Shown: one piece after another, positions 174-29,430 of the stretch
Layout of the letters: each line of letters opens with the position of its first letter
Numbering within the stretch: the stretch's first letter is position 1
Assembly: GCF_900104745.1 (NCBI RefSeq)
Contig: NZ_LT629732.1
Location: 2,343,981-2,407,980 of the forward strand
Length of the DNA stretch: 64,000 nucleotides
Direction: 5' to 3'
Source: Actinopolymorpha singaporensis
Lineage (GTDB): Bacteria > Actinomycetota > Actinomycetes > Propionibacteriales > Actinopolymorphaceae
Notes under the pieces: model-generated
What the model was told of the DNA's origin: nothing
Databases searched by the model: none
Seen by the model: only the letters and a program-made list of their open reading frames with translations
Made by a program: the position numbers and the translations under genes

Positions 174-2264
174 ATGGAACTCAAAGCCGAGAAGCAGACG
201 CTGAAGGCGCTCCTGGCGGTAGACGAGCAGCAGTTCAGGATCCCTCCATACCAGCGGCCGTACTCGTGGACCCGTGAACAGATTGACGACCTGTGGACCG
301 ACCTGATCGAGAATGTGCAGGCAGGTCACTTCATTGGCTCGGTCGTTCTGGCGGCCGAAGATGATGCTCGGCCACTCGTCATCGACGGCCAGCAACGCCT
401 GACCACCCTGATGCTGATACTGGGCGCTGTTCGCGACGCGTGTCATGCCCGTGGCATGACGAATGACGTCCAGCAGATCGAGAAGCGGTTCATCGCGGAC
501 GATCTAGCGAATGGCGACGCGCAGTTCAAGTTCAGAACCGGGAACGCCAACTGGCCCGTGTTCCGCGACTTCACACTTCGGTCGGTGGGAGACCCGCTTC
601 GCAAGGCCGAGTCCAGCGCGTTGGACAAGGACATGCGTGCGCGCAACCGGGCTCTACTCAGCAATCGTGACCGGATCGTCTCCCTCCTCGCCTCACATCT
701 GGAGCATCTTCCTGAGCCCGGGCAGGAGAAGTGGCTTCGAGACTTCTGGAAGGCCCTGCTTGGTAAAGTCGAGCTTGTAGTCATCGCGGTGCGAGACCTT
801 GGGGACGCCTTCCTGCTCTTCGAGACCCTCAACGACCGAGGGCTACAACTGTCGGCAGCCGACCTGCTGAAGAGTCACATGCTCGGCGAGATCGCCAAGC
901 GGTCTGCCGAGGAGGATGTCGACCAGGCCGCTTCATCGTGGGACGGGATGCTCGACGATCTCGGCGCAGGTGTCGACGTCACACGATTCCTTCGGCACTA
1001 CCTCCTTGGCTACGTCCCGAAGGTGAAGAAGGACAGCGTCTTCGACCAGTTCAAGGAACTGGTGAAAGACCGTGGCGCGGAGTCTGTGCTCGCGGACCTT
1101 CGGACCGCTGCCGCCGCGTATGGGGAGTTTGAGGCGCCAGCCAAGGCGGGGCACGAGCAGACGAGCGCGGTACTCAAGGACCTTGCCACCCTTCGGGCAG
1201 TGACCTGCTACATAGCTCTGCTGCCGGCACGTCGGTACCTGGCGGAGAAGGACTTCGTCGAGTTCGCGCGGCTGGCGGAGGTACTCACCTACCGATACAG
1301 CAGCGTGGTTGGTCGAGGGACCAACGAGATCGAACCCGTTTATCACAGGGCGGCCAAGATCCTCCATGACAGCCAAGGGACGCGTTTGGCGGAGGCGCGC
1401 GAGACCCTCATCGCAGCTATGCCAGATGCCGAGCAGTTCCGTGTGGCGTTCCAGCGCCTGGAGATGGGGCGACAATACCTCGTTCGATACACGCTCCAGC
1501 GGATAGAGCAGGCGCTGCATCCGGCGTTGGAGAAGATGGTTGACGTGTCCACCCTCGTACACATCGAGCATGTCATGCCGCAGACGCTCAACAAGGACTG
1601 GTCAGTGAGTCTGGGGTCGTTTGCCGACCAGTACCAGGAGTACGTGAATCGTTGGGGAAACCTGACGCTCCTGTTCGCGGGGCTGAACATACCGGCCAGC
1701 AACAAGGCGTTCGAACAGAAGAAGCGATACTACGGCGACTCTCAGGTGAAGATCACCCAGGAACTGTGCCAGTACGAGACCTGGGGGCCAGAGCAGATCG
1801 ACGCTCGCCAGCGTTGGCTCGCGGAGGTGGCGGAACACGTCTGGCGTGTCTACCCAGTCCCGCACGACCAATTGCCCACCCTGCGGTACGAGCACAAGAC
1901 ATCGCTCGACGACTTTCGAGAGAGGGTCGGCGCGCTGTGGCCGGTGATTGCCCCGTATGCCACCGACACCACGGCTCAGGAGATCCGATCGCTGGCAACT
2001 CGTCTGCCAGGCCACCTTGCCGGCCATACCGATCACTCGTCTCTGGCGGGCAAGATCGCTGATGGACTGACCGAGCTCCTCCAAGGCTGGGAGGACTACA
2101 GCCACTCGGATCGCAGGCTGGTCCGCGCGGTGGCCGAGTACTTCCTGGAGCCCGAGGACTCGGCTCCGGACGAGCTTCCGGGTGGTTTGGACGATGACCG
2201 TGCGGCGCTCATCGCCGCATTCGCGGCACTCGATCGTCAGTTGCCTTCCTGCCTGCAGTCCTGA
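174..2264 (+). CDS. GmrSD-like type IV restriction protein (DUF262 + DUF1524)
   Basis: The predicted protein has 696 residues. Its N-terminal part is a DUF262 (GmrS, ParB-like NTPase) domain with the family motif DGQQR at residues 71-75, preceded by an IPPYQRPYSW stretch. The C-terminal part carries the DUF1524 (GmrD, HNH-type nuclease) signature HIEHVMPQ at about 463-470, followed by the conserved NRWGNLTLL segment. Known GmrSD enzymes cut glucosylated or otherwise modified phage DNA using NTP. The ATG at 174 is chosen because a GGGAGG ribosome site sits 10 bases upstream and the conserved domain begins at once; an open frame reaches back to 27 but adds unconserved residues. It lies just outside a BREX operon, which attacks unmodified DNA, so the two would complement each other. 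The modified-DNA target is inferred from the family. Confidence 0.85.
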   Translation: MELKAEKQTLKALLAVDEQQFRIPPYQRPYSWTREQIDDLWTDLIENVQAGHFIGSVVLAAEDDARPLVIDGQQRLTTLMLILGAVRDACHARGMTNDVQQIEKRFIADDLANGDAQFKFRTGNANWPVFRDFTLRSVGDPLRKAESSALDKDMRARNRALLSNRDRIVSLLASHLEHLPEPGQEKWLRDFWKALLGKVELVVIAVRDLGDAFLLFETLNDRGLQLSAADLLKSHMLGEIAKRSAEEDVDQAASSWDGMLDDLGAGVDVTRFLRHYLLGYVPKVKKDSVFDQFKELVKDRGAESVLADLRTAAAAYGEFEAPAKAGHEQTSAVLKDLATLRAVTCYIALLPARRYLAEKDFVEFARLAEVLTYRYSSVVGRGTNEIEPVYHRAAKILHDSQGTRLAEARETLIAAMPDAEQFRVAFQRLEMGRQYLVRYTLQRIEQALHPALEKMVDVSTLVHIEHVMPQTLNKDWSVSLGSFADQYQEYVNRWGNLTLLFAGLNIPASNKAFEQKKRYYGDSQVKITQELCQYETWGPEQIDARQRWLAEVAEHVWRVYPVPHDQLPTLRYEHKTSLDDFRERVGALWPVIAPYATDTTAQEIRSLATRLPGHLAGHTDHSSLAGKIADGLTELLQGWEDYSHSDRRLVRAVAEYFLEPEDSAPDELPGGLDDDRAALIAAFAALDRQLPSCLQS

Positions 2265-2385
2265 CGACCTGCCGGTCCTCTTCCGCCGCGCGCCCGTGTC
2301 CAGCGGTCCACTGTCGCCACTTGCGGTTCAGTCAAATGTAGGAGTGCAACGAGTCGGGGGAGTTCAAGAGCCGATGTTCGGCGAA

Positions 2386-2646
2386 TCAGACCCGCATCCG
2401 CCAGTCAGTAAGGATCGCGTAAACATACGCTGGCCCTCGCACAATTGAATTGATCTCGCTTGGCCCTGCTAGCGGCATGAGCTCATATGCTTTCCGAAAC
2501 TGACTCTTATGGATTGGATATTCGGTTCTGTTAGGAATCACGCTGGTCCCTTCGACGCGGTAGATGAACGGGAGACCAGTCTTTGTGTGGAACTCCTGTC
2601 CAGCGCTGGCTTCGATGCGTGCCCAGACTGCGGTAAAATTGCCCAT
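2386..2646 (-). CDS. Small protein of unknown function, downstream of the caspase-like gene
   Basis: An 86-residue soluble protein with no signal peptide or membrane segment. The ATG at 2646 has an AGGAGG site about 6 bases upstream. I cannot assign it to a named family. It has a compact, mixed charged and aromatic composition with a PLAGP-EINSIVRGPAYVYAIL core, which looks like a folded domain and not a chance frame. It starts 35 bases after the stop of the caspase-like gene on the same strand, so the two are probably co-transcribed. A partner, substrate or inhibitor of the protease is a possible role, but that is inference from position only. Confidence 0.6.
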   Translation of the reverse strand: MGNFTAVWARIEASAGQEFHTKTGLPFIYRVEGTSVIPNRTEYPIHKSQFRKAYELMPLAGPSEINSIVRGPAYVYAILTDWRMRV

Positions 2647-2681
2647 TTCCTGCCTCCTGTGCCGGGCGCAGATCCGTGATT

Positions 2682-3254
2682 CTACCGGCTGTTCTTTCGC
2701 CCATCGGAGTAGAGGATGCGGAAGCCAAGCTTCTGTGTAACTGCGCTCCAGTGGGCTGTGGTGAGCAGCTTCCTTTGCGTACCGTTAGCGAGATGCCCTA
2801 GGAACGCCACATCGAAGGCGGCCGAGTCGAGCCAGTCGACGTCTTTGGTATAGCCACAAATGAGCTCTGCACCTGTTAATTTCAGGAAGTCTGTAAGCGA
2901 CGCGTCGGAAGCGTTCATTACCGAGCAACTGCCAAAGTACAGTCGTCGGCCCCCGCATCTCCCCTCAAGGTGCTGGGCGATGTGATGGAGTGGAACGACG
3001 TTCCCGTTTGACAGTCGGAGCTTGCTAGATTCACCGTGCATAGCGAAGTAGCCCACTGCAAAGTCGCTATAGGCCCTCCGCGCCCAGCGCTCCAGGAAAT
3101 GGTCTAACTCCGGGACGGTGGCGACGTCCTTGTGGATGAACTGTATGTAGCCGAGTCGCTCTAGTAGCTCAAGTGCGGGACGTACGGAGCTGGTGTCGGT
3201 CAGGTTCTCGTCCCATTGACCCTCGAGACAGAAGACTCCACGTGGTGTGGCCAA
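2682..3254 (-). CDS. Caspase-like (DUF6642-type) protein
   Basis: A 190-residue protein whose opening (GVFCLEGQWD, then SVRPALELLERLGYIQFIHKD) resembles DUF6642 proteins. The sequence shows a His within YFAMHGES (about residue 73) and a Cys within YFGSCSV (about residue 108), spaced as in the His-Cys dyad of clan CD (caspase, CHAT, gingipain) peptidases, each after a hydrophobic strand. Peptidase activity is inferred from this dyad. The start is a TTG at 3254 with a GGAGA site about 6 bases upstream. It is the first gene of a probable two-gene operon lying between a type IV restriction gene and a BREX operon. Caspase-fold proteins in bacterial defence islands commonly act as cell-suicide effectors. 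Base composition is lower in GC than the BREX genes, suggesting a separate acquisition. Confidence 0.65.
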   Translation of the reverse strand: MATPRGVFCLEGQWDENLTDTSSVRPALELLERLGYIQFIHKDVATVPELDHFLERWARRAYSDFAVGYFAMHGESSKLRLSNGNVVPLHHIAQHLEGRCGGRRLYFGSCSVMNASDASLTDFLKLTGAELICGYTKDVDWLDSAAFDVAFLGHLANGTQRKLLTTAHWSAVTQKLGFRILYSDGRKNSR

Positions 3255-3655
3255 GGCATCTCCAGTGGTAGATCGCTAGGCGGCGGTCGAGCTCGACGCC
3301 GACGGGCGTGGAGCTGGAAGTGATGATCACTGAGGTTACGGGACCGAGGAGACACTCGGACGGGACTTGTCACAGTCGTGTGGGCAGTAGCTACGCAGTC
3401 GCGGTCCGAGGTGCGCGGCTAACGCTCTTTGAGTAGTTCAACTGGTGCGCAGCAATCTCGTTGGCAAGGCCGGTTAGACCAGATGGCCGACGGTGGACAG
3501 GCTTGCGGAATCGGCATCACCAAACGATCACTTTCTTGGTTGTTCACTGGAGAGTGCTTTACGCGCTGCTAAGGTACCGCGCGAATGATCTTGGTCGCGG
3601 GTCCAACTACTCGTCGGCCGGTTTTCGCGTGTCCAAGCCGTCGGGGAGGGGGGCG
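3255..3655. other. Intergenic region between the caspase-like gene and BREX
   Basis: About 400 bases without a supported gene. It must contain the divergent control signals for the minus-strand protease pair and the plus-strand BREX operon. The pglW frame stays open back to 3461, but the extra 65 codons show no domain and lack a good ribosome site. A run of six G (3648-3653) forms the end of the pglW ribosome site. I could not make out a convincing -35/-10 pair. Confidence 0.5.
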
Positions 3656-6600
3656 ATGGACGTCGGACGCTGGGTTCAGTGCACGCCGTCGGAGTTTTCG
3701 TGGGAGCGTGCTGCGCTCGCATATCTGCGCACCCTCCTGCCCGAGAAGGAGCCCTACCGCGCCTGGGCCAACGCCGAGTTCATCGGCACCGATGGGTCTG
3801 TCAACGAGATCGACCTGCTGCTCGTCACCCCGCGACGCCTGATCGTCCTGGAGGTCAAGTCGTGGGCGGGCATTCTCGTTGGTGACGCCGGCACCTGGCA
3901 GCAGACGCACCGTGCGCCCGTCGACAACCCCGTGATCGGGGCGACCCGCAAAGCCCGCAAGCTGAAGTCTCTTCTCGCAGCCCAGCCCGCATTGCGCGGT
4001 AAGCGGGTTCCATGGATCGAGGGCGCGGTTTTCCTCTCCGACGCCAGTCTCGACGTACGCCTGAAGTCCGAAGGTCTCGCCCACGTCTTCGGCCGTCAGG
4101 ACCACGCCGACCTGCCCAGCGTCCTCGCCCACATCACCGAGCCCGGCGACGACGTCGACACCACGATGGCGGCCGCGATAGCCAAGGCGGTGAACCAGGC
4201 GGGCATTCGTCAGTCTCAGCGCGGGCGCAAGGTCGGCAGCCTCCGGCTGGAGATGCCGGCGATGCAGGAAGGCCCGGGCTGGCAGGACTTCCTGGCCCGC
4301 CACGAGCGCTTCCGGGACGACCCGCCGCGCCGCGTGCGCATTTACCTGGCCGGTGAGGCGGAGGCTGGTGACCGCCGCGCCCAGCTCGTACGAGCGGCCG
4401 AGCGCGAGTACCGCGCGCTTCGCGGCATCGACTACAGCGGCATCGCCAGCCCGATCGACTTCGTCGAACACGACCTCGGCCCGGCGCTGATCTTCCCGCA
4501 CGACCCGAGCCTCGTACGCCTCGACCACTTCCTGCAGCAGGAGGACGCGAAGCTTGACCTGGATGCCCGCCTGTCGCTCCTGCGGACGCTCGCGGAGACC
4601 ATCTCCTACGCCCACCGCCGAACGCTCGCCCACCGCGGCCTGAGCCCTCAATGTGTGTGGGTACGCCGCGACGGTGACGGCTTCCATCTCCAGGTCACCG
4701 ACTGGCAGACCGCGACCCGGGGCTCGGAGTCGACCACGGGCGCGTCGGTGAGTTCGACGCAGACGTTCGCCGAGCTCGCCGAGGAGGGCGCGACCGCCTA
4801 CTTCGCCCCGGAGTGGGCGTGGGGGAGCCAGAACGGCGTCCCGTTGGACGTGTTCGGCGTCGGCGCGATCGCCTACTTGCTGTTCGCCGGGCACCCGCCG
4901 GCTTCGTCGTTCGGCGCTCTGGCCCGTCGGCTGTTGTCCCAGGGGTGCCTGTCCCTGCGTGCGCAGGTCGACAACGTCAGTGACAGGCTGGACATCCTGG
5001 TGGCCAAGGCGACGATGGCTGACGCGGCCAAGCGGACGCAGGACATGGCCGCCTTCCTGCTCGACCTGGACACGCTCCGAGAGCAGCTCACGGCCGAGGC
5101 GGCGGAGCAGGTTGTCGCCGTCGATCCGCTCACCGCAGAGGCCGGAGCGGAGCTGGAGGACGGCTTCAAGGTCGTACGGCGGCTCGGCCGCGGCTCCACC
5201 GCTCTGGCGCTGCTGGTCGAGCGGGACGGGAAGGAAGCGGTCCTCAAGGTCTCACTGGACCCCCAGAAGGACGCCCGGATCCGATCTGAGGCCGCGGCGC
5301 TCGCGCTCCTCGGCGAACACCCGGGCATCGTCCAGTTGCTGGATCCCGATCCGTTGCTTGTTGGCGGCCGGCTGGCGATCCTGCTCACGTTCGCCGGCAG
5401 GGGCACCCTGATGAGGGAGCTCCGCGAGCGCGGGCGCCTGCAGCCGGAGTGGCTGCACGACTGGGGCAAGGACCTGCTCGCCACCGTCGACTACCTCGAA
5501 CGCACCGGCGTCGCACACCGCGACATCAAGCCCGACAACCTCGGCATCAGCGAGCGCGGGGGAAAGGGCAAGAAGCGGCGCCTGGTTCTGTTCGACTTCT
5601 CGCTGTCCCGGGAGCCGCTGGAGGCGGTCGAGGCCGGCACCCCGCCCTACCTGGATCCCTTCCTGGGCCGGGGAGACCGTCGCCGCTGGGACACCGCCGC
5701 CGAGCGGTACGCAGCCGCGGTCACGCTCTACGAGATGGCGACCGCGCGGCGGCCGACCTACGGCGCCGGTGGCGGGCATCCGGGCTACGGCGACGCGGAC
5801 GTGACGATCGACCCGGAGCTGTTCGACCGTTCCTACGCCGTCGGCCTGGCGGACTTCTTCCGGCGCGCCCTGCACCGCGACGCGCGCAAGCGGTTCGACA
5901 CCGCCGAGGACATGCAGCGCGCCTGGGACGCGGTGTTCGCCAAGCCGGCCACGGTTGTTCCGGAGCAGCCGGCGGCACAGCGCGTCAGCCGCGAGACCCC
6001 GATCGGCGCCGTCGGCCTGTCGCCTCAGGTCCTGGCCGTCCTCGAACGACTGAACGCCGCCGACGTGGGCGCCGCGCTCGACCTGCCGCCGGCACAGCTC
6101 ACCTGGCTGCCCGGCATCGGCACGAAGACGCGGGAACGCCTGCGCAAGGAGCTGAGCGACCTCGCCGATCAGGTCGCCGCCTCGACCCAGGAACGGCCCA
6201 CCGAACCCACGTTGCTGGACAAGGTGGCCGACGCGCTGGTCCCCGACTCTGCGGACAGAGCCGTGGCCGAAGCGCTGCTTGGCCTGGGTGAAGCCGGCGG
6301 CACCGCCTGGGCGAGCACCCGCGACGCGTCCAAGGCGCTCGGCCGAGACCAGCGCACCATGCGCCAGGCCGTCCAGCGGCTCGAGGACCACTGGGTCGGC
6401 CTGGACGGCATGCGCGTACTCCGCGACGTCGTGGTCGAGGTCGTCGAGTCCGTCGGCGGTGTTGCGTCCGCCGCGCACTGTGCGGCCAGGTTGCTGGACC
6501 GGCTGGGCAGCACGGTGGAGGAACCACTGCGGTCACGGCTCGCCGAGGCGCTGGTACGGGTGGCCATCGACGCCGAACTCGCCGACGAGCACCTGGACGG

Positions 6601-7801
6601 TGACCCGCGCCTGGTCTACAGCCGCCAGACCCACGGGATCCTGGTCGCGGCAGGTCCGCTGGAAGTCGGCGAGGGCCCGTCGACCGCCGAGCGGCTGGAG
6701 TGGGCTTCGGGGCTCGGCGAGGCCGCGGACACGATGGCGGCGGCGGACCCGCTGCCCGTACCCGCGCGGGTGGTCGAGACGCTGCGCGAGGTCCCCGCTC
6801 CCGATGGCACGGACCCCGCCTTGCTGGCGCCTGACCGTCTGGTCGAGGTGGCCGCGCTCGCCGCGGAGACCGCCGCTGTCACCCCGCGCCTGGAGATCTA
6901 CCCGCGCGGACTGGACGCCGGGCGCGCGGTGCGGCTCGCAGCGGGTGCGTTGTACGGGGTCAGCGAGCTGAGCCCGGGCGAGGTGGCCGAGCGGGTGATG
7001 TCGCGTTTCCCGTACGCCGCGCCGCTGCCAGGCCGACCCGAACTCGACGCGCTGCTGGAGTCCGCCGGCGTACCGCTGGTGTGGAACGCCGAGCAGTCGA
7101 AGTACCTCGCCCGCAAACCCGAGGGCGTGGGGCTCACCTCGGTCTTCCTGACGACTGGCCGCTCGACGCCGCAGCGGGCTTCGACCGGCGGCACGCTGTC
7201 CAAGGCGGACTGGCGCCGAGTCGAGAACGCCGTCGTGGCTGCCGACGACCGGTTGGCGCGTTCGCTGGAGGACGGCGGCTGGGTCGTTCTCTCCGTACGC
7301 CCGAGCCGGTTGGCCCGCGCGGAGGCCTGTCTGTCGCACCAACAGGTGAACACCGTCGACGTCGAACGCGAGTTCCTCGCCGGCCTGCGCGCGTACTGCA
7401 AGGAACGCCGGGTGAAGTGGGACGTTGTGCTCGCCGCCGACGCTGCCGACCGCTCGTCGCGTGACTGGTCACGGCTGTCGAGTGTGGTGCAGGGCGGCGC
7501 ACTGCCCCGGGTGCGCGAGGCGATCCGGGAGGCAGGACCGTGCGTGCTGCTCACCCACGCCGGAGTTCTGACGAGGTACGACCCGAGCCTGCGCATCCTC
7601 GACGAACTCCGCGACGAGGTGTTCAGGGCGACGGCGGACTCCCCGGTGCGCACGGTCTGGCTGGTGGTGCCGGGGCCCGACGACTCGCCGCCGAAGTTGG
7701 ACGGCGTGGCCGTGCCGGTGTTCGGGTCGCAGTGGATGCCGCTGCCGGAGGAATGGATCAGCAAGCACGAGTCGGCACTTCGGGAGGGTGGAGCCGCATG
7801 A
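3656..7801 (+). CDS. pglW: PglW, NERD/protein kinase of type 2 BREX
   Basis: A 1381-residue protein. Order of domains: a NERD nuclease-like domain near the N terminus (EIDLLLVTPRRLIVLEVKSW, about residues 48-67), a degenerate kinase lobe pair in which the catalytic loop reads HRGLSPQ (326-332, Asp replaced by Gly), a complete Ser/Thr kinase with HRDIKPDN (621-628) and a DFS activation segment, a helix-hairpin-helix (LPGIGTKTRERL, about 820), and a long C-terminal region with winged-helix-like segments. PglW is the kinase of the phage growth limitation (Pgl/BREX type 2) system. The ATG at 3656 is preceded by GGAGGGGGG, and conserved sequence begins immediately. It overlaps pglX by four bases (ATGA), showing it heads the operon. 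The first kinase unit is probably a pseudokinase. Confidence 0.92.
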   Translation: MDVGRWVQCTPSEFSWERAALAYLRTLLPEKEPYRAWANAEFIGTDGSVNEIDLLLVTPRRLIVLEVKSWAGILVGDAGTWQQTHRAPVDNPVIGATRKARKLKSLLAAQPALRGKRVPWIEGAVFLSDASLDVRLKSEGLAHVFGRQDHADLPSVLAHITEPGDDVDTTMAAAIAKAVNQAGIRQSQRGRKVGSLRLEMPAMQEGPGWQDFLARHERFRDDPPRRVRIYLAGEAEAGDRRAQLVRAAEREYRALRGIDYSGIASPIDFVEHDLGPALIFPHDPSLVRLDHFLQQEDAKLDLDARLSLLRTLAETISYAHRRTLAHRGLSPQCVWVRRDGDGFHLQVTDWQTATRGSESTTGASVSSTQTFAELAEEGATAYFAPEWAWGSQNGVPLDVFGVGAIAYLLFAGHPPASSFGALARRLLSQGCLSLRAQVDNVSDRLDILVAKATMADAAKRTQDMAAFLLDLDTLREQLTAEAAEQVVAVDPLTAEAGAELEDGFKVVRRLGRGSTALALLVERDGKEAVLKVSLDPQKDARIRSEAAALALLGEHPGIVQLLDPDPLLVGGRLAILLTFAGRGTLMRELRERGRLQPEWLHDWGKDLLATVDYLERTGVAHRDIKPDNLGISERGGKGKKRRLVLFDFSLSREPLEAVEAGTPPYLDPFLGRGDRRRWDTAAERYAAAVTLYEMATARRPTYGAGGGHPGYGDADVTIDPELFDRSYAVGLADFFRRALHRDARKRFDTAEDMQRAWDAVFAKPATVVPEQPAAQRVSRETPIGAVGLSPQVLAVLERLNAADVGAALDLPPAQLTWLPGIGTKTRERLRKELSDLADQVAASTQERPTEPTLLDKVADALVPDSADRAVAEALLGLGEAGGTAWASTRDASKALGRDQRTMRQAVQRLEDHWVGLDGMRVLRDVVVEVVESVGGVASAAHCAARLLDRLGSTVEEPLRSRLAEALVRVAIDAELADEHLDGDPRLVYSRQTHGILVAAGPLEVGEGPSTAERLEWASGLGEAADTMAAADPLPVPARVVETLREVPAPDGTDPALLAPDRLVEVAALAAETAAVTPRLEIYPRGLDAGRAVRLAAGALYGVSELSPGEVAERVMSRFPYAAPLPGRPELDALLESAGVPLVWNAEQSKYLARKPEGVGLTSVFLTTGRSTPQRASTGGTLSKADWRRVENAVVAADDRLARSLEDGGWVVLSVRPSRLARAEACLSHQQVNTVDVEREFLAGLRAYCKERRVKWDVVLAADAADRSSRDWSRLSSVVQGGALPRVREAIREAGPCVLLTHAGVLTRYDPSLRILDELRDEVFRATADSPVRTVWLVVPGPDDSPPKLDGVAVPVFGSQWMPLPEEWISKHESALREGGAA

Positions 7802-11355: not shown

Positions 11356-11370
11356 GGGGTACCGCCAACC

Positions 11371-17705: not shown

Positions 17706-19030
17706 GCATCAGCGAGCAGCGTCGACGGGAGGTGGTCGACGCGCTGCGCCGTGGGACCGTGCCGCAGCAGGGGCTGGACGTCCTGGCCGTCGGGCTGGGC
17801 CGGTTCGAGTCCGCCGTGGGGGAGGAACTCGGGCGCATCGCTGCTGGTCAGGCGGTCTTCAAGGCGGTGCGCGGTGAGTACGGCGCGGGCAAGACGTTCT
17901 TCAGCCGCTGGCTCGCCGAACGCGCCAAACGTGCCGGGCTCGCCACCACCGAGGTGCAGATCTCGGAGAACGAGACGCCCCTGCACCGCCTGGAGACCGT
18001 CTACCGGCGGCTCACCGAGCATCTGGCCACCGCCGAGTTCACCCCCAGCGCACTGCGGCCGATCGTCGACTCGTGGTTCTTCGCGCTCGAGGAAGACGTG
18101 CTCGCCGAGGGCCAGGTGGACGAGGACGAGCTGGAACGACGCGTCGGGGGACTGCTGGAGCAGCGGCTGGCCGCGGTCAGCCGGGTCGCTCCGTCGTTCG
18201 CCGCCGCGCTGCGTGCCTACCGGCGGGCGAGCGTCGCCGGTGACGTCGCGGTGGCCGAAGGGCTGATGGCCTGGTTGGGCGGGCAGCCGCACGTCGGCGC
18301 CTCGGTCAAGCGGGTCGCCGGGATCCGGGGCGACCTGGACCATGACGGTGCGCTCGGGTTCCTGCAGGGACTGCTCGCCGTGCTGCGGGACAGTGGGCAC
18401 GCGGGGCTGCTGGTCGTACTGGACGAGGTGGAGACGCTGCAGCGGGTTCGTTCCGACGTACGCGACAAGGCGCTGAACGCGCTGCGGCAGCTCGTCGATG
18501 ACGTGGACTCCGGGCGCTTTCCGGGGCTGATGCTCGTGATCACCGGTACACCGGCGTTCTTCGACGGGCCGCAGGGGATGCAACGGCTCGCGCCGCTCGC
18601 CCAGCGGTTGCACGTGGACTTCTCCAGCGAGCCGACGTTCGACAATCCCCGGGCGGTGCAGATCCGCCTGCCGGGCTTTGACAAGGACTCCTTGCTAGAA
18701 CTCGGGTCGCGGGTGCGGGATTTGTACGTGCAGGGATCGTCGCACCGCGACCGGCTCACTGATCTGGTCGACGACGCCTATGTCGCAGACCTGGCGCGGG
18801 CAGTTGCCGGCCACTTCGGTGACAAGGTGGGCGTGGCGCCCCGGATCTTCGTCAAGAAGCTGGTCGACGTGCTGGACCGGGTTGATCAGCATGCTTCGTT
18901 CGATCCCCGGCGGGACTACTCGGTGCGGGTATCGGGGAGGGAGCTCACCGACGCCGAGCGGGCGACCATGCCCGCACCTCCGCCACTGGCTTCCGCAGAA
19001 TCCGTCGACGAGATCGACCTGAGGCTGTGA
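17702..19030 (+). CDS. brxD: BrxD, P-loop ATPase of type 2 BREX
   Basis: A 442-residue protein with Walker A GEYGAGKT at residues 58-65 and a Walker B-like LLVVLDEVE ending in D241-E242. These and the position after pglZ fit BrxD, the DUF2791-type ATPase found only in type 2 BREX. It is thought to work with the BrxHI helicase encoded next. The GTG start at 17702 overlaps the pglZ stop (GTGA), and the stop overlaps the next start in the same way. Length and layout are typical and I see no defect. Confidence 0.93.
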   Translation: MSISEQRRREVVDALRRGTVPQQGLDVLAVGLGRFESAVGEELGRIAAGQAVFKAVRGEYGAGKTFFSRWLAERAKRAGLATTEVQISENETPLHRLETVYRRLTEHLATAEFTPSALRPIVDSWFFALEEDVLAEGQVDEDELERRVGGLLEQRLAAVSRVAPSFAAALRAYRRASVAGDVAVAEGLMAWLGGQPHVGASVKRVAGIRGDLDHDGALGFLQGLLAVLRDSGHAGLLVVLDEVETLQRVRSDVRDKALNALRQLVDDVDSGRFPGLMLVITGTPAFFDGPQGMQRLAPLAQRLHVDFSSEPTFDNPRAVQIRLPGFDKDSLLELGSRVRDLYVQGSSHRDRLTDLVDDAYVADLARAVAGHFGDKVGVAPRIFVKKLVDVLDRVDQHASFDPRRDYSVRVSGRELTDAERATMPAPPPLASAESVDEIDLRL

Positions 19031-21138
19031 GCGGTTTCGCCGACCTGCACCCGGCCGTTCAGTACCACGTGGTGAACAGCCTGGGATGGTCGTCGCTGCG
19101 GCCGTTGCAGGAGGCAGCGGTGTCGCCGGTGCTCGCGGGTGAGGACGCGTTGCTACTTGCTCCTACCGCCGGCGGAAAGACGGAGGCGGCGATGTTGCCG
19201 CTGCTATCTCGGATGGCCGCCGGCGGTTGGCGAGGGCTGAGCGTCCTGTACGTGTGCCCGCTGCGTGCGCTGGTCAACAACCTCGAGCCGCGTCTGTCGG
19301 CCATGACCGCCTGGCTCGGCCGTCGCGCCACGGTGTGGCATGGGGACGTGCCGGACTCGGTTCGGCAGCGGATCGCCAAGGACCCACCCGACGTACTCCT
19401 CACCACGCCCGAGTCGCTGGAAGCGATGCTGATGTCTGCTCGGGTGGACCACCAGTGGCTGTTCGGCGACCTACGGACGATCGTGGTCGACGAGCTTCAC
19501 GCGTTTGGTGGCGACGACCGTGGCTGGCACCTGCTCGGAGTCCTTTCCCGGCTCACCCGGCTGGCCAGCCGGGCCGTGCAACGGGTCGGGCTGTCGGCGA
19601 CGGTCGGCAACCCTGAGGTGCTGCTGGACTGGTTCGCGGGGGACTCGCCTGCGGCTCGGCGGGTTGTGAATCCGCCTGTAGCGGGGTCCGACGCCGTGCC
19701 GGAGGTGGAGCTGGACTACGTGGGCTCGGTGCAGAACGCGGCCCACGTGATCGCCCGCCTGCACCAGGGTGAGAAGCGGCTGGTGTTCTGCGATTCCAGG
19801 ACGCAGGTGGAGGACCTGGCGGTCGCGCTTCGATATAACGGCGTGCAGACGTTCGTGTCGCACTCGTCCCTCTCGGCGGCGGAGCGGCGCCAGTCCGAAG
19901 CCGGGTTCGCCGCTGCGTCGAACTGCGCCATCGTCGCCACGTCGACGCTCGAGCTCGGGGTGGACATCGGTGACCTCGATCGCGTGATCCAGATCGACGC
20001 GCCATCGACCGTCGCTGCCTTTCTGCAGCGAATGGGGCGCACTGGGCGGCGGCCCGGCACCACGCGGAACACGCTCTTCCTCACTACCCGCCAGGCCTCC
20101 TTGTGGCAGGCCGCGTCGATCCTGTTGCTGTGGAGTCGCGGCTACGTGGAGCCGGTACGTCCACCTGTGCTCCCGCTGCACATCGTCGCGCAGCAGATCC
20201 TCGGGCTGATGCTTCAGGAGCGTCAGGTCGTTCACCACGACCTGTGGGACTGGCTCGACGGACTGGCGGTCGTACCGGGTGCTGACATGGTGCTTGCTCA
20301 TCTTGTCGCCGAAGGCTTCGTGGTCGACGACGGCGGCTTGTTGTCGATCGGTCCAAGGGCGGAGAAGGAGTACGGGCGACGGCACTTCCTGGAGTTGACG
20401 TCCGCCTTCACCAGCGAGCCGATGCTCCAGGTCCTCTTTGGTCGGCAGGTGCTGGGGTCGCTGTCCGCGCTGTCCCTGGTGACGCGGCCCGAGGGCGGAC
20501 CGCGGTTGGTGTTGCTCGGCGGACGCTCGTGGCTGGTGAGGCACGTGGACTGGAGAAGACGACAGGTCTTCGTGGAGGCGACCGATCTACGTGGCCGTTC
20601 GCGATGGAACGGTGGAGGGCGGACGATGTCTCACGAGCTCGCTTGGGCGCACCACGACGCCGTGGCTGGCTCGTCGCCCGACGGAGTGCGGCTTTCCCGC
20701 CGAGCCCAGGACGCGCTGGGCGAGCTGCGCGAAGACCACGCCTTCGTTAGCGCCGGCGACCGGACGTACGTGGTCAGCGACAGCGCCGGGGCAGTGAACT
20801 GGTGGACCTTCGCCGGCTTCGCCGCCAACTCGGCGCTAGCTCAAGGATTGAGCGATCTTGTGGACGACACCGCAGCCGTCGGGGACCTGAGACTAAGGCT
20901 AAGGCCGCACGTGCGCGCCGCCGACCTTCAGTCCGCCCTGGACGAGCGCCGCGAAGCCCTACTCGAAGCCCGCCCCTGTGTGGACAACGCAGCCCTCGAC
21001 GGCCTGAAGTTCTCCGCCGCGCTGCCACCCGAACTAGCTAGAGCTACCCTCGCAGAGCGACTCAAAGATCTGTCCGGCGTGCGTTGGGCGCGGGAAGCCC
21101 TCCTCCGTGATGTCGACGTCAGCGCTGGCCATAGATGA
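19027..21138 (+). CDS. brxHI: BrxHI, Lhr-like superfamily 2 helicase of BREX
   Basis: A 703-residue DEAD/DEAH-superfamily helicase. Motif I reads APTAGGKT (45-52), motif II DELH (155-158) and motif VI QRMGRTGRR (334-342). The C-terminal third resembles the Lhr-type extension. BrxHI is the helicase that marks type 2 BREX loci and probably remodels DNA or the BREX complex. The GTG start at 19027 overlaps the brxD stop by four bases, so this is the last gene of a six-gene coupled operon. Its stop lies only 22 bases from the stop of a convergent kinase gene, leaving little room for a dedicated terminator. Confidence 0.93.
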   Translation: MSGFADLHPAVQYHVVNSLGWSSLRPLQEAAVSPVLAGEDALLLAPTAGGKTEAAMLPLLSRMAAGGWRGLSVLYVCPLRALVNNLEPRLSAMTAWLGRRATVWHGDVPDSVRQRIAKDPPDVLLTTPESLEAMLMSARVDHQWLFGDLRTIVVDELHAFGGDDRGWHLLGVLSRLTRLASRAVQRVGLSATVGNPEVLLDWFAGDSPAARRVVNPPVAGSDAVPEVELDYVGSVQNAAHVIARLHQGEKRLVFCDSRTQVEDLAVALRYNGVQTFVSHSSLSAAERRQSEAGFAAASNCAIVATSTLELGVDIGDLDRVIQIDAPSTVAAFLQRMGRTGRRPGTTRNTLFLTTRQASLWQAASILLLWSRGYVEPVRPPVLPLHIVAQQILGLMLQERQVVHHDLWDWLDGLAVVPGADMVLAHLVAEGFVVDDGGLLSIGPRAEKEYGRRHFLELTSAFTSEPMLQVLFGRQVLGSLSALSLVTRPEGGPRLVLLGGRSWLVRHVDWRRRQVFVEATDLRGRSRWNGGGRTMSHELAWAHHDAVAGSSPDGVRLSRRAQDALGELREDHAFVSAGDRTYVVSDSAGAVNWWTFAGFAANSALAQGLSDLVDDTAAVGDLRLRLRPHVRAADLQSALDERREALLEARPCVDNAALDGLKFSAALPPELARATLAERLKDLSGVRWAREALLRDVDVSAGHR

Positions 21139-21160
21139 CCACCACTTTGCCAACCTGATG

Positions 21161-23404
21161 TCAGCGACCTGTGAAGACGAAGTGCAGGTAGCGCATGTGC
21201 GACAGCCTCTGCTGATCTTCTCTGGCCCGGCCAAGCGCATCATCAACGATGGCAAGGTTGAGTCGGCTGTTCTGCAGATCTGCAAGCTGCTGGTCGAACG
21301 ACGAACGTTTGGTCTTTGCGCGCATTATTGCGGACGCATCCTCTGTCTCAAGGATCTCTAGCTCTCGTTGGACCCGTCGTTTCACATCGTCCCGCATCTT
21401 GCGTGCCGTCTCCGCCGCGGTGGTTCGCTCGCCCTCAAGCTTGATCTTCTTCCTGTTGACCTGACTCTTGATGTCGTCGCGTTCTTGATGCGTAAGCTGG
21501 ATGGGGCAGCCTTTAGCTGCCAGCAATTCGCGCCGACTTCTCCAATCCTTGAGAATACGGGCCCTTTCCGGTCCTATGCCCGGAACCCTCGTAGTGCGGC
21601 CGCTGGGCAGGACAAGAACTACGTTCGTGCCGCCGCCACCCCCGGCAGTGAGTCGAAAATCAACGAAATCCGCAGCTGTCCGGATCCCACGAGCAGCGAG
21701 ATTGGCGATCGTCTTCTCGCCGATGGAAGAGAGGTTCGCTCGGGAAATCAGCGCTTTCCGCAGTTCGTTCTCCACATATGTCCTCTGACGCGGGGCCAAC
21801 GCCCTTGTAAAGGCAGCCTGTAGATCGCTGCTAAGATTGGCAATCTTTATGTCGATAGCTTGAATAGCGTCAGCGCTGGTCACGTTAACGGAGGCCAACT
21901 CGCGCGACATCCCGTCATTCAGGTCTCGCCGCTTCTTGGCGACGGTGGCAGCTCGGAGAGACTCGGTCTTTTCGAATGATTCTCGCTCCCGCTGAATGCG
22001 GTCAGCTTCGGCCGACGGATTAACGGCTGCCCGGCGTTGTTGCTCGAGCTCGCGGATCCGACTTCGGGTGTCCCGGCTCTCTGTCCGTATACGCCTTCCC
22101 AGCAGACTCAGGAGCAGTACTCCACTGAATGTGGCGACAAGAGTGCTCGGAAACGCTCCTGGAGCGAGCCGTCCGGAGACGTCTAGAAGCGCTGGCAGCA
22201 AAACTGACAGGGGGATTAGTAGTAACAGGACAACATCGAAGAAACGACGTCCTGAGAATTCCGCTCTAACAGATCCACTGGTCGCCGGAGAGGCAGGTAC
22301 TTGTGACGGGGATGGTGTAGGTGTTCCTTCGGCGGAGATGTGAGAAGCGAGCCACCCAGGCAGGCTGCCGGGCCGTGCCCCAGTGGCATGTGTAGGAGGT
22401 GTCGACGTCATCCATGAAGCTTTAACTCCAGCCGCAGGCTGCGTCGACGCGACGGGCTGTGAGGTGGACAGCGGAGGCAGCGCGTCCAGCGGTTGCCACG
22501 TTAGGCTGCGAACAGCTTGGGCAAGGTCCCGAACAGCTTGATCCGTATGGCTTAGCAGTTCCGGGAACCGCGGCGCAGTGTCAGGTGACTTGAAATCATC
22601 TTCCGCGAGCAGCAGGTATTCGCCGCCGGGTTCGTGCAACTTGGCCCAGAGGCCAGGATCAACGGAGAGCGCGAGAAGGGACAAGTAGATGACCCATGCG
22701 GAGAACCGGTCCATGGTCGGCCCGAAGTCTGCCTCACTACGCGACGGAGACTGGTAGTGGCGATGGCCGGTCTCCGACGCGCGGAGGCCGCGCATGCCGG
22801 GGACGTACATGCCGTCGTAGTCGACCAGGCGGAAGGTTCCGTCCGATGCGACCAACAGGTTGCCGTGCTGAAGATCACCGTGGGCGATGCCGGCCTTGTC
22901 GAGATCAACCGTAAGGTCTGCAAACCGCTTGGCGAGGCGCCTTGTCGCAGCCCTGTCTGAATAGTTTTGCTCAAGCCAGTTCGCCAGTGTGGTTGCCTCT
23001 ACCCACTCCATTTTCAATACGGGATACCGGCTGCCATTAACCAGTATGCCATCGCGCAAATACTCGAAGCCCATCTTCCATGGCTGCGATAGTTGCGCCA
23101 TGGAGAGTTTGCTTAGCTGACTGCTGATCTCGTGATATCGTGATTCTTGGTCAGGGACATACCGCGTAAAGCATTTTAGTGCGTATCGTCGACCAGTTGT
23201 AGTCTCAAGCGAAAAAACACTCGCGAAGTTCCCCGACATGGGTTTCGGCATGCCGAGTTTGTTCGTGTCAACCCGACATGTCCTGAGCTCAGGTGCCCTA
23301 AAAACGTGGGCCGGGTTTTGAAGTGCAGTAGCGTAGTCGGCGCCCGATGGAAAAGCTTTGGGTGAGCCTGCATTTCCGAGACCCGCTGAACCGGCCGCCA
23401 TCAC
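21161..23404 (-). CDS. Membrane-anchored protein kinase with helix-hairpin-helix domain (TerY-P triad)
   Basis: A 747-residue protein. An N-terminal protein kinase shows the ATP-binding Lys in YALKCF (Lys 77), a catalytic loop HGDLQHGN (175-182) and DYDG (195-198) in place of DFG. A Pro/Ser/Thr-rich linker leads to two hydrophobic stretches at about 390-440 that can span the membrane, then a long charged coiled coil and a helix-hairpin-helix around GIGPERARILKDW, followed by more coiled coil. Together with the upstream PP2C and vWA genes it forms the TerY-phosphorylation triad, described as an antiviral module. The start is GTG 23404 or ATG 23401; the gene begins two bases after the PP2C stop. 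Codon use is less GC-biased than in the BREX operon, suggesting independent origin. Confidence 0.8.
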   Translation of the reverse strand: MMAAGSAGLGNAGSPKAFPSGADYATALQNPAHVFRAPELRTCRVDTNKLGMPKPMSGNFASVFSLETTTGRRYALKCFTRYVPDQESRYHEISSQLSKLSMAQLSQPWKMGFEYLRDGILVNGSRYPVLKMEWVEATTLANWLEQNYSDRAATRRLAKRFADLTVDLDKAGIAHGDLQHGNLLVASDGTFRLVDYDGMYVPGMRGLRASETGHRHYQSPSRSEADFGPTMDRFSAWVIYLSLLALSVDPGLWAKLHEPGGEYLLLAEDDFKSPDTAPRFPELLSHTDQAVRDLAQAVRSLTWQPLDALPPLSTSQPVASTQPAAGVKASWMTSTPPTHATGARPGSLPGWLASHISAEGTPTPSPSQVPASPATSGSVRAEFSGRRFFDVVLLLLIPLSVLLPALLDVSGRLAPGAFPSTLVATFSGVLLLSLLGRRIRTESRDTRSRIRELEQQRRAAVNPSAEADRIQRERESFEKTESLRAATVAKKRRDLNDGMSRELASVNVTSADAIQAIDIKIANLSSDLQAAFTRALAPRQRTYVENELRKALISRANLSSIGEKTIANLAARGIRTAADFVDFRLTAGGGGGTNVVLVLPSGRTTRVPGIGPERARILKDWRSRRELLAAKGCPIQLTHQERDDIKSQVNRKKIKLEGERTTAAETARKMRDDVKRRVQRELEILETEDASAIMRAKTKRSSFDQQLADLQNSRLNLAIVDDALGRAREDQQRLSHMRYLHFVFTGR

Positions 23405-23406
23405 GA

Positions 23407-24234
23407 CTAACCCTGTACCTCGACATGAATCACAGAGACGTCGTCGTTGTGAATTTCTCCAGTCGCCCGGAGCTCAGAGATCCACTGAGTAAAGTCTTCC
23501 AAATTCTCATGCAGGCTGTATTTCCGCAACTGGTGTAGTGCCTCTTCGGACCTGGCCTTATCGTTACACGAGAAGAACCATGCCGCCAGCGCATCAGTCA
23601 TAATGAATAGCTCGTCGCCAGCTTCGCAGATGCCGTGGCGAAACTGCGTCCGCTCAGAAATAAGAGCGACGTCGCGGTTTAAGCTCCCAAAGAGCATTGG
23701 GGTATTCCCGAACTCGTTGATGTTCTGGATCGGAAATGACTCGATGACCTGTTCGTCGCGCACGTGGAACAAGCATGTATCTCCGAGGGCGGCGGCCTTC
23801 CACGAAGCGGCGTGGTCGTCACTGGTTGGATCGACCCGCATAACCAGCAGCGTTGAGAACGCCCCCTGCGGAATCTTTGCCTCCTCGTACCACTTCAGCG
23901 GTCGTCCCTGCTGAGACCGAGTTGCAAGGTATTCGGCCAGCCAGTTGCGCCATTTGACGATAGCGTCAGTTGCGAAGTCAGAAAATGATTCCGCGGCATC
24001 GAAGAATGAGGCAGTCGAAGCGTGCTGCAAGGCGGTCTCGGCAAGTAAGCCGGCCCAGTGCTCAACGAGCATGCTCTCCGAGGCGCCGTCGCACATTGCC
24101 GCAATAACGGCGTCCTCAAAGTAGTCGTGGTATGGCACGTCAGGAGAAACTCGCAGTGCATCCTCACACTCGGCAGGAGTGTTTCCGGCTTTCGGTACTT
24201 GGAGATGCGTGCGGAAAAAACGTGTCGGAGTCAC
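23407..24234 (-). CDS. PP2C-family serine/threonine phosphatase (TerY-P triad)
   Basis: A 275-residue protein with the scattered metal-binding motifs of PP2C phosphatases: an early acidic CEDA segment, CDGAS at about 49-53, GDTCLF in the middle, TDALAAW and the terminal NDDVS. It would reverse phosphorylation by the kinase encoded next. The start is a GTG at 24234 that overlaps the vWA stop (GTGA), so the three genes are translationally coupled. Protein partners are inferred from the gene order vWA, PP2C, kinase, which is conserved in TerY-P loci. Confidence 0.8.
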   Translation of the reverse strand: MTPTRFFRTHLQVPKAGNTPAECEDALRVSPDVPYHDYFEDAVIAAMCDGASESMLVEHWAGLLAETALQHASTASFFDAAESFSDFATDAIVKWRNWLAEYLATRSQQGRPLKWYEEAKIPQGAFSTLLVMRVDPTSDDHAASWKAAALGDTCLFHVRDEQVIESFPIQNINEFGNTPMLFGSLNRDVALISERTQFRHGICEAGDELFIMTDALAAWFFSCNDKARSEEALHQLRKYSLHENLEDFTQWISELRATGEIHNDDVSVIHVEVQG

Positions 24235-25076
24235 CGGAGTTCGGAGGCTCGGGTGCCGATGTCGAGGAACTGAACGATCGAAACAATGTCCGCGTTGTAA
24301 ACAAAGCCTCGTGCGTTTTCTCCGATTCGGCTGCCAAGGACTTCTGCAGCGTATCCGCGGGTATTTGCAGGAAGGAGACTCGACATCCCGAAGAGCGTGC
24401 GAGCATACGAGTCCGGGAGACCAGCGTCAGAGTCCGGGAAGGTGACAGGGACGCCTCCAGCTGCGGAAACGTGTGAGTTGAAGAGAAGAGTTTCGCCATC
24501 GCTCGTGGCGTGACTCGTCAACGCGCTCGCTGCAGATGTCGGATCTCCGTCGGTCGACTCACCATCGGTGAGGTTCAAGACAATGGGCGGATAGCCATCA
24601 GGATGGCGTGCGACCCACTCCGATACTAAGGTTTCTGCGTAGCGCAGTGCCCGGTTCATCGGTGTGCCGCCGTTGGCAACAGGATCCATCCAGATGGCGA
24701 ACTTGGCCGTGGTCTCGATCAAGCCGCCGGCGCCGTCAGGTATCTTCTTCTGTCGGTCTTCTACGCGCGCGGGGTTGTCGGCGACTTCGCTCAACGGGAC
24801 CAGGTCCCGGCTGGAAAGTTCCCCGGCAAAAGCTGAGCCGACGGTGGAGCCGTAGCCGATGGCGGCGACATGGAAGTAGTCACGCACGCCCTCTTCCTTG
24901 GCGCACCTCACCGACAACTCGATGAGGATCCGGTTGATGGCGTCCGCAACGACGTCCGCCTTCCGCTGGGGAACCTCGCTGTCGCCTCCAATCGCATCGG
25001 TCATGGAGGTGGACTGATCTACCAGGAAGATGAAGCAGCCCGGGTTGTTACGGCTGATCTCGGCCGTGTACGGCAT
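24231..25076 (-). CDS. vWA domain protein, TerY-like (TerY-P triad)
   Basis: A 281-residue von Willebrand factor A domain protein. The metal-ion-dependent adhesion site DQSTS lies at residues 20-24 after a hydrophobic FIFLV strand, and a later LNLTDGES fits the second metal-binding loop. Length suits a single vWA domain as in TerY. The ATG at 25076 is preferred over one at 25127 because a GGGAG site sits about 9 bases upstream and the vWA fold begins directly. It is first in an operon with a PP2C phosphatase and a kinase. TerY-type proteins are thought to scaffold the phospho-signalling partners. Confidence 0.8.
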   Translation of the reverse strand: MPYTAEISRNNPGCFIFLVDQSTSMTDAIGGDSEVPQRKADVVADAINRILIELSVRCAKEEGVRDYFHVAAIGYGSTVGSAFAGELSSRDLVPLSEVADNPARVEDRQKKIPDGAGGLIETTAKFAIWMDPVANGGTPMNRALRYAETLVSEWVARHPDGYPPIVLNLTDGESTDGDPTSAASALTSHATSDGETLLFNSHVSAAGGVPVTFPDSDAGLPDSYARTLFGMSSLLPANTRGYAAEVLGSRIGENARGFVYNADIVSIVQFLDIGTRASELR

Positions 25077-29180: not shown

Positions 29181-29430
29181 TGGTCACCAATGCCCTCGGA
29201 TGGAAGACACCTGCTGAGGTCTTCGAGGATCAACTACGCCCGCTTTAACAAGCCAGTGTTGCGTCGACCGGTTGAACTCACCCAGTCCGGGTCACGGGCC
29301 TTCACCGACCGCGCCAAGGACTCCGGCCTGGTGCCCTCGACCAGAGCGCCGATACGGCGTGAACGGGTCTCGCCCGGCGACGTTAGCAACGCCTGGTCTG
29401 TAACGAGCCGCAGATCAGAGCCGGTCGATA

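Follow-up and report, generated by a model that had tools for sequence, protein, structure and literature searches.

Each of the defense systems considered here is already known by itself; the question that they raise is how systems sharing an island work together. The type-2 BREX (Pgl) system of Streptomyces coelicolor consists of six genes (PglW, PglX, PglY, PglZ, BrxD, and BrxHI) on one strand, and the same six genes are present, likewise on one strand, in the soil actinomycete Actinopolymorpha singaporensis, where several anti-phage systems lie side by side. In contrast to S. coelicolor Pgl, the BREX-2 operon in our window (the whole 64,000-nucleotide stretch of DNA that was analyzed) is flanked by a GmrSD-family enzyme, a DUF6642 protein, and a triad of vWA, PP2C, and kinase genes. 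As described in excerpts of PMC8565348, the pEFER island carries a BREX-1 system beside the GmrSD-family enzyme BrxU, and complementary protection was shown experimentally; the window likewise has BREX next to a type IV enzyme of the GmrSD family, but its BREX is of type 2 and its GmrSD gene lies outside the operon. The TerY-P triad is a stand-alone defense system of Gao 2020 (as cited in excerpted text of PMC11090510) and also occurs in CoCoNuTs. Adjoining TerY vWA, PP2C, and Ser/Thr kinase genes are likewise found in the window, but the C-terminus of the window kinase combines hydrophobic stretches with a weak match to HhH, and no zinc ribbon or OB-fold was matched there (Pfam, PADLOC STK_OB), for which reason we call the triad TerY-P-like. 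CoCoNuT types II and III-A have McrB/CnuB, CnuC, CnuH, and CnuE genes beside TerY-P; the genes scanned in the window and its left flank, which cover part of those near the triad, gave no McrB- or CnuH-like match.

Further parallels come from PMC7159879, excerpts of which describe actinobacterial GAP1-N2 GTPase systems with a TM-fused kinase linked to a PP2C and a stand-alone vWA gene. The window shares with these a kinase with hydrophobic stretches, a PP2C, and a separate vWA gene, but no GTPase partner was recognized among the window genes scanned. The EACC1-caspase systems in the same excerpts occur beside both triad and BREX-2 in four Streptomyces-type relatives (L080, L082, L083, and L084), where an Mrr-EACC1-caspase/helicase operon joins the two; in contrast, the window genes scanned gave no EACC1 or caspase-helicase match, and DUF6642 is a different Pfam family. 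BREX is not mentioned in that paper, and the available parts of the main text of a 2026 BREX survey (PMC12839542) contain no mention of TerY, PP2C, caspase, or EACC1.

The island spans positions 174 to 25076 of the window, with all frames open (Table 1). The original prediction was of four independent defense modules back to back. Profile matches place GmrSD, DUF6642, BREX-2, and the triad just so; the claimed independence fails, since 3 of the 6 genomes in the genus carry GmrSD, DUF6642, and BREX-2 as a single collinear block, with the fourth module alone differing. The idea that the modules are layered has a precedent in the BREX-1 and BrxU experiments excerpted above. BREX and triad do adjoin convergently, the stop codons of BrxHI and the kinase being 22 bp apart, and the predicted end of the triad at 25076 agrees with a TerY alignment that starts at Met18.

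Table 1. Features of the defense island and its surroundings, in window coordinates.
Feature	Position	Strand	Evidence
GmrSD-family type IV restriction enzyme (HEC-06-like)	174..2264	+	PF03235 E 1.7e-37, PF07510 E 1.9e-25
86-aa ORF left over from the tail of another GmrSD_N-type gene	2386..2646	-	G614 homologue whole
DUF6642 protein with caspase-like His73/Cys110 pair	2682..3254	-	PF20347 E 9.7e-22
Complete type-2 BREX operon	3656-21138	+	PglW, PglX, PglY, PglZ, BrxD, BrxHI
PglW, comprising NERD, a kinase that looks degenerate by eye, and a kinase of the active type (HRD)	3656..7801	+	NF033442 1380 bits, cut-off 990; HRD and NERD motifs present
PglX, BREX-2 adenine methyltransferase	7798..11355	+	NF033451 1637 bits, cut-off 400; NPPY
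PglY / BrxC ATPase	11371..15036	+	PDLC02488 1493 bits; Walker A
PglZ (BREX-2 type)	15033..17705	+	NF033446 789 bits, cut-off 200
BrxD ATPase	17702..19030	+	PF10923 E 9e-143; PDLC02494 E 4e-205
BrxHI helicase	19027..21138	+	PDLC02503 E 6e-296
Triad kinase	21161..23404	-	PDLC02223 E 2e-74, residues 17-313
Triad PP2C-type phosphatase	23407..24234	-	PDLC02222 E 5e-28
TerY-type vWA protein	24231..25076	-	PDLC02224 E 2e-104
Broken, truncated exonuclease remnant of the congeners' slot module	28692..29186	+	74% DNA identity to L297 and L299

The BREX operon is assigned to type 2 on finding all six genes together in one run; PglY falls below the NF047891 cut-off (1074 versus 1700 bits), yet aligns over its full length to the PADLOC BrxC/PglY model. 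None of the seven GmrSD and BREX frames contains an internal stop, and the motifs sought in them (kinase, methyltransferase, ATPases, and helicase) are in place. GmrSD begins with an ATG at 174 and carries GmrSD_N and GmrSD_C on one chain, with DGQQR and IEHVMP (HNH-type) motifs. In the DUF6642 protein, all 5 aligned sequences share the His and Cys, which sit in MHG-like and YFGSC-like contexts; the caspase-like label given in the original prediction stands as a motif-level assignment. Comparison by fold was uninformative: hhalign against a caspase domain (PF00656 match) gave a probability of 1%, with the His and Cys regions lining up, and a PDB profile search returned no significant match.

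The triad is similarly well conserved at its catalytic positions. K77 of the kinase is nearly invariant and H175-G176-D177, N182, and D195 are invariant across 41 sequences; among 12 sequences each, D25, D49-G50, D152, D214, and N263-D264-D265 of PP2C and D37, S39, S41, T155, and D188 of TerY are invariant. The kinase, which matches only the kinase half of STK_OB, runs from its kinase domain through hydrophobic stretches (385-436, by hydropathy) to a coiled-coil-like region (by eye); it had been predicted as an HhH kinase, a name of which the kinase part stands and the HhH part rests on a below-cut-off match (HHH_5 E 3e-4) in the C-terminal region. Around the triad, matches to promoters and terminators are about as frequent as chance would give, and a tRNA scan found no tRNA. 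Plasmid searches did not point to recent acquisition from a plasmid: TerY had two plasmid matches (47% and 39% identity), BrxHI had 12, all below 60% (E<=1e-60), and the congeners' PP2C had none.

Comparison with congeners separates a stable core from variable edges. G624 and G616 share with the window the order of GmrSD, DUF6642, and the six BREX genes but lack the triad; DNA identity over aligned pieces of the block is 86-94% and 84-89%, respectively, and the GmrSD copies are 93% and 91% identical. Relative to three congeners, PglX is 78-81% identical, with DNA alignments breaking inside it (~9184-9820), and the other BREX proteins are 91-98% identical over best pieces (83-84% for the C-terminal half of BrxHI). 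On the PglW side, the 86-aa ORF is a scar and no orphan: its entire length aligns at 73% identity with residues 658-743 of a 743-aa protein (PF03235, E 1e-25) whose gene stands whole beside PglW in G614. The ORF is also present in G624 (93%) and G616 (86%), whereas the G614 stretch lacks both DUF6642 and the window-type GmrSD and has this different GmrSD_N protein instead.

On the other side, blastn homology ends near the 3' end of BrxHI (at window positions 21027 against L297, 21020 against L299, and 21054 against L295). Past this point, G616 (L299) and G624 (L297) carry a slot module with a UvrD-type helicase, an exonuclease, a weakly ZorA-like protein, a small family-less protein, a vWA protein (PF00092), a PP2C (PF13672; the L297 copy is 68% identical), and two kinase-like proteins. 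By blastp, none of these is significantly similar to the triad of the window (best E 0.22). The window nevertheless bears a second scar, an exonuclease remnant in two reading frames covering ~147 of 580 residues, with a stop in the first frame; its first ORF matches PF00929 RNase_T (E 2.4e-5). G614 has neither module past BrxHI and carries there a 1327-aa, weakly Aga/PDC-S73-like gene. The same BREX-2 core thus offers a natural replacement, with two unrelated kinase-phosphatase-vWA modules in one slot, although this exchange on the BrxHI side happened once, within a single genus.

To place this neighborhood in a wider context, we searched 374 genomes of the class for PglW, TerY, and DUF6642. 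All three occur together in none of the 373 other genomes, so that four-way co-occurrence, the check suggested in the original prediction, permits no test and the set cannot be called enriched; PglW and TerY are both present in 13 genomes, and within 30 kb of each other only in the window. Across 219 Streptomyces genomes, TerY lies within 30 kb at 2 of 51 PglW places, and genome-level co-occurrence is 5 against ~2.7 expected. The BREX-2/triad pair fares better in one respect: BREX-2 is within 10 kb of 7 of the 25 triads in the clade to which that of the window belongs and of 0 of 55 outside it (Fisher p 1.5e-4, a statistic that ignores phylogeny), far above random placement. It is not clearly above the GmrSD control (BREX-2 neighbors at 2 of 12 triads versus 1 of 57 long GmrSD genes; p=0.076, suggestive only). 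The BREX-2-adjacent triads of this clade show five arrangements beside several PglW lineages, and PglW remnants stand beside TerY in two further triads. Simple descent of one neighborhood can be rejected for the Streptomyces-type loci, whose arrangements differ and whose PglW partners do not form one clade (L082 and L084 pair sister triads with distant PglWs); it may apply to the window and A. pittospori, which share a genus and come out as sisters in both trees.

The reading that we favor, at slightly better than even, is of a modular, layered phage-defense island with a stable BREX-2 core, exchangeable edges, and the triad as a second-line switch. If the swaps ran in this direction, a GmrSD-type gene like that still whole in G614 would have given way on the PglW side to DUF6642 and another GmrSD, leaving its tail behind. 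The occupant of the BrxHI side would be a phospho-signaling module (vWA protein, PP2C, and one or two kinases), and in the lineage of the window an older one would have been lost but for an exonuclease fragment, with the TerY-P-like triad now in its place. In the most likely mode of action, BREX-2 would methylate the host and block unmodified phage DNA, GmrSD would cut modified phage DNA, and the kinase, which is probably tethered to the membrane, would be assembled on the vWA protein, counteracted by PP2C, and act as the switch if infection persists; the triad may in turn benefit from adjoining BREX-2. Alternatively, the four components may simply gather in insertion-tolerant hotspots, each working alone with slot occupants at random, which we consider a realistic possibility, though short of even. 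Exchange at both BREX-2 edges, the 86-aa tail included, is what a plain hotspot would give; it fits both of these readings and therefore leaves the balance between them unchanged. A trmA/APC hotspot holds triads without BREX-2 (L071-L075 and L081), BREX-2 alone (6 of 40 triad-less loci), and both (L084), in G450 a GmrSD gene and TerY are 6 kb apart, and the 1327-aa gene of G614 is yet another occupant after BrxHI. Against this, only 1 of the 7 BREX-2-adjacent triads is at the trmA site, only two flank genes of the other six loci recur in pairs in triad-less BREX-2 flanks (L281 with L258 and L260), and the filling of a single slot by two unrelated modules, each drawn from the same three enzyme classes, would have to be a coincidence.

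Narrower links between components seem less probable. DUF6642 might be an effector protease paired with GmrSD, and not with BREX or the triad: the two are ~0.4 kb apart in the window, a GmrSD-like protein is 1.1 kb away from DUF6642 in an otherwise different island of G295 (L285), and both partners are absent together from the G614 stretch. We think this unlikely, as 3 of 5 DUF6642 loci in the class (two from one genus) are among ordinary-looking genes, judged by eye, and the caspase fold is unconfirmed. Direct cross-talk, with PglW phosphorylating triad proteins or the triad PP2C dephosphorylating PglW or PglZ in one circuit, appears more improbable still. In excerpts of PMC4365076, PglW is an autokinase whose kinase lysine is needed for Pgl defense; catalytic residues are conserved in both kinase/phosphatase sets, adjacency recurs, and the best indirect support comes from the unrelated vWA-PP2C-kinase module in the same slot of two congeners. 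However, most BREX-2 places have no triad and most triads no nearby BREX-2, and therefore neither needs the other.

Within the favored picture of a BREX-2 core with exchangeable edges, a more speculative and rather doubtful extension is that some BREX-2 systems have a dedicated but interchangeable phospho-relay partner, whereby any vWA-PP2C-kinase module past BrxHI would sense the PglW kinase state (or a stall in BREX action) and set off a further layer, which may be abortive. The window's triad and the module of G616 and G624 would then be two solutions to one role, paralleling the two different GmrSD-type enzymes that have stood on the PglW side. Genomes with the triad, with the other module, and with neither provide a natural comparison for asking whether BREX-2 gains from a phospho-signaling partner and whether PglW talks to it. 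As a BREX-wide rule for the slot, the notion finds no support in Streptomyces: home-made profiles found no complete vWA-PP2C-kinase set in 40 triad-less BREX-2 flanks, of which 38 downstream stretches were covered, 26 of them including BrxHI itself. Individual flanks in this survey do contain related genes, with one kinase ~0.1 kb past BrxHI at L242, and vWA-like, kinase-like, and caspase-like genes at L256.

The four modules that the original prediction had described as independent defence systems are all present in the first 25 kb of the window, with all frames open (coordinates in the table below), at 2.34–2.41 Mb on one contig of 6.40 Mb. GmrSD carries the motifs DGQQR and IEHVMP. Within the BREX-2 operon, PglW combines a NERD motif with two kinase regions, of which the first (HRG/TDW) looks degenerate by eye and the second has HRD; PglX has an NPPY motif, PglY and BrxD each have a Walker A, and BrxHI has a DELH motif. 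The main new result comes from comparison within the genus: modules appear to have been exchanged on both sides of a BREX-2 core that is otherwise conserved, and on one side the modules concerned are unrelated but of like make-up. We consider this module exchange the most interesting part; it goes beyond the original prediction.

Features of the window and breaks in its alignment to congeners (window positions)
Feature	Position	Strand	Remarks
GmrSD	174-2264	+	Both family domains present
86-aa ORF	2386-2646		Matches the C-terminal 86 residues of the 743-aa protein of G614 at 73% identity
DUF6642	2682-3254	-	After GmrSD, on the opposite strand; small protein with caspase-like His/Cys pair
Type-2 BREX operon, complete	3656-21138	+	PglW start to BrxHI stop; profile matches and motifs
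PglX	7798-11355		
Break in congener DNA alignments	~9184-9820		Within PglX
Stop of congener DNA alignments	21020-21054		Near the BrxHI end
Triad (kinase, PP2C, TerY)	21161-25076	-	End lies 22 bp from BrxHI
Exonuclease piece	28692-29186		Truncated and frame-broken; from the exonuclease of the congener module

Among six genomes of the genus, TerY occurs in two and PglW in five. One genome of the genus, G627, has a PglW place identical to that of A. pittospori (L064/G374) and a TerY place in agreement with L064, so that the window most likely belongs to Actinopolymorpha. Two congeners, G624 and G616, have GmrSD, DUF6642, and BREX-2 in the same order and orientation as the window (protein identities of 93% and 91% for GmrSD, 99% and 84% for DUF6642, and 96% and 94% for PglW, respectively), with DNA identity over the aligned pieces of 86–94% for G624 and 84–89% for G616. 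G624 shares the left flank of the window and, further on, its right flank; G616 has scattered right-hand matches only. Beside BREX-2 the triad is absent from both, and the place past BrxHI holds, going outward, a UvrD-type helicase and an exonuclease, next a protein weakly like ZorA and a small one, and then vWA and PP2C proteins followed by two kinase-like proteins. The vWA and PP2C matches to Pfam are above cut-off; the kinases match PADLOC kinase models weakly (E 1e-3 to 1e-2) and keep the GD...N...D motifs. By BLAST, none of these proteins is significantly similar to the window triad, and the window has no match to the congener vWA, PP2C, or kinases. Profile comparison with the triad gave probabilities of 91% for the vWA proteins (one superfamily), a marginal 49% for the kinases, with motifs aligned, and 1% for PP2C, where no likeness was detectable. 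In a third congener, G614, neither module lies past BrxHI, and a 1327-aa protein is found instead; a whole-genome search for the congener vWA protein, run without a positive control, found it in none of G000, G614, and G621 (0/3). Because G616 is the more distant by DNA identity, the simplest history would be that the congener module is older and was ousted by the triad. A lone Streptomyces kinase approximately 0.1 kb past BrxHI (L242:14581-15477) is 38% identical to one of the congener kinases, K1. Window PglX is only 78–81% identical to its congener counterparts (L300, L301, L302), with the DNA break in one segment, which suggests that its recognition specificity has changed.

At the PglW edge, G614 has BREX-2 without DUF6642 or a window-type GmrSD, and a 743-aa GmrSD_N protein stands directly upstream of PglW. 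Since the tail of this protein remains in the window, as the 86-aa ORF, and in G624 and G616, a GmrSD-type gene probably once occupied the present place of DUF6642. In A. pittospori, neither DUF6642 nor GmrSD was matched in the stretches examined around BREX-2.

In the triad kinase, HGD, N182, and D195 are kept in 41/41 aligned sequences, and no fewer than 90% keep K77. Hydrophobic stretches lie at 385-413 and 417-436, with at least one such stretch in all 41 rows, and residues 605-630 match a helix-hairpin-helix below cut-off (Pfam E 3e-4). Neither an OB-fold nor a zinc ribbon was matched in this kinase, and we therefore call the triad TerY-P-like. The catalytic residues of the other two proteins, acidic in PP2C and of the MIDAS in TerY, are invariant in 12/12 aligned sequences each.

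Scanning named genomes with TerY, from the best 80 of 121 relatives, gave 79 loci (56 of at least 20 kb). In a tree of 80 TerY proteins, all triads with BREX-2 within 10 kb belong to a single clade with 25 members (support 92/81), where they make up 7/25 vs 0/55 of the other rows (Fisher p=1.5e-4, phylogeny ignored). These seven, in which the BREX-2 gene set is complete except at L080, whose contig stops inside BrxD, show five arrangements: BREX followed by a convergent triad (window); a triad divergent from PglW (A. pittospori L064 and S. griseus NCTC13033 L078); PglW divergent from a Mrr-EACC1-caspase/helicase-triad set (S. longispororuber strains L082 and L084); that arrangement with an inverted triad (Streptomycetaceae MP113-05 L080); and BREX, Mrr-EACC1-caspase/helicase, and convergent triad (Streptomyces ISL-96 L083). 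In a FastTree of 79 PglW sequences, the triad partners are scattered over several positions. The triads of L082 and L084 are sisters and share their neighbours, but the PglWs beside them (L151, L145) sit on distant branches, which looks like an exchange of the BREX partner. Beyond the seven, broken PglW pieces adjoin TerY at L079 (L184:15802-18904), which also has a BREX-2 accessory gene, and at L131, apparently decayed BREX-2 systems with the triad retained.

How far this proximity exceeds chance depends on the comparison. In 374 genomes of the class, searched for PglW (E<=1e-50), TerY (E<=1e-20), and DUF6642, PglW occurs in 54 and TerY in 21, at 27 places; 13 genomes have both, and the window alone has the two within 30 kb on one contig, many of the other 12 assemblies being fragmented, such that neighbours beyond contig ends could be missed. 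DUF6642 occurs in five, and the four besides the window lack PglW. Among 219 Streptomyces genomes, TerY is found in 12 (12 places), PglW in 49 (51 places), and both in 5, vs approximately 2.7 expected if independent. Two pairs lie within 30 kb (L080 and L082, by coordinates), vs approximately 0.02 under uniform placement (60 kb per 8.5 Mb x 51/219 x 12). The pairing thus greatly exceeds random placement, but an excess over the usual clustering in defence islands is not clear: of 57 GmrSD_C matches taken as a defence-gene control, counted by eye in frames of at least 532 aa among those listed to approximately E 1.6e-18, one (G434) has PglW within 30 kb on the same contig, vs 2 of 12 triads (Fisher p=0.076).

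A real rival is that a shared hotspot explains the proximity of triads and BREX-2. A trmA-like/APC transporter site in Streptomyces (L276, L071-L075, L081, L232, L246, L254, L268, L271, L273) holds BREX-2, triads, or both. Triads lie near the trmA-like gene without BREX at L071, L072, L073, L074, L075, and L081; BREX-2 without a triad is accompanied by two or more of the three site genes at 6/40 loci, four of them with the trmA-like gene (40 of the 51 places sampled); and at L084 the BREX-2 operon is bordered by APC/trmA-like genes on one side and by the Mrr-EACC1-caspase/helicase-triad set on the other. L078 and L082 have one flank in common, and flank genes of the other loci show no paired recurrence in triad-less BREX-2 flanks, save two (L281, which is L080, with L258/L260).

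We favour a layered island with a phospho-signalling layer in the place past BrxHI, a place that would tend to carry such a layer. This reading is favoured on several grounds. GmrSD enzymes cleave DNA that is modified, and BREX targets DNA that is not; protection by BREX-1 and BrxU is complementary (PMC8565348). PglW is an autokinase, and Pgl requires its kinase lysine (PMC4365076). TerY-P-like modules act as stand-alone defence (PMC11090510, citing Gao 2020). The last source also describes CoCoNuT superoperons as often including BREX and other systems. The original observation is confirmed and its interpretation partly supported; for the cross-talk it raised, we hypothesize that the phospho-signalling layer may answer to PglW. 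Our literature search found nothing joining TerY with PglW and nothing on DUF6642, and the main text of a 2026 BREX survey (PMC12839542) does not mention TerY, PP2C, caspase, or EACC1.

A further recurring partner is cluster c4, present in 14/24 examined loci. At L082, the only Streptomyces version scanned, it is a fusion of a Peptidase_C14 caspase with an AAA_11/AAA_12 helicase, adjoining EACC1 and a Mrr-type nuclease; the scanned Nocardia version (L066) has no caspase match. This Mrr-EACC1-caspase-helicase operon (L082:4839-13925, the one locus scanned for these families) recurs by TerY-P-like triads at L071, L072, L075, L080, L083, and L084. Four Streptomyces-type loci combine caspase, triad, and BREX-2, with a caspase family different from DUF6642. 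DUF6642 has a GmrSD-like protein nearby in a second, different island as well (L285:9800-13398, in G295, of another family but in the same order). In A. pittospori, a ZacC-like helicase (L064:17327-20575; PADLOC, 1107 bits) lies approximately 3.4 kb past the triad, with a transposase-like gene, judged by eye, between them. L122 and L067 each hold two triads of different subfamilies, and a protein of approximately 637 aa (L175:12011-13924), with relatives in about two dozen loci, lies within or adjoins many Streptomyces BREX-2 operons.
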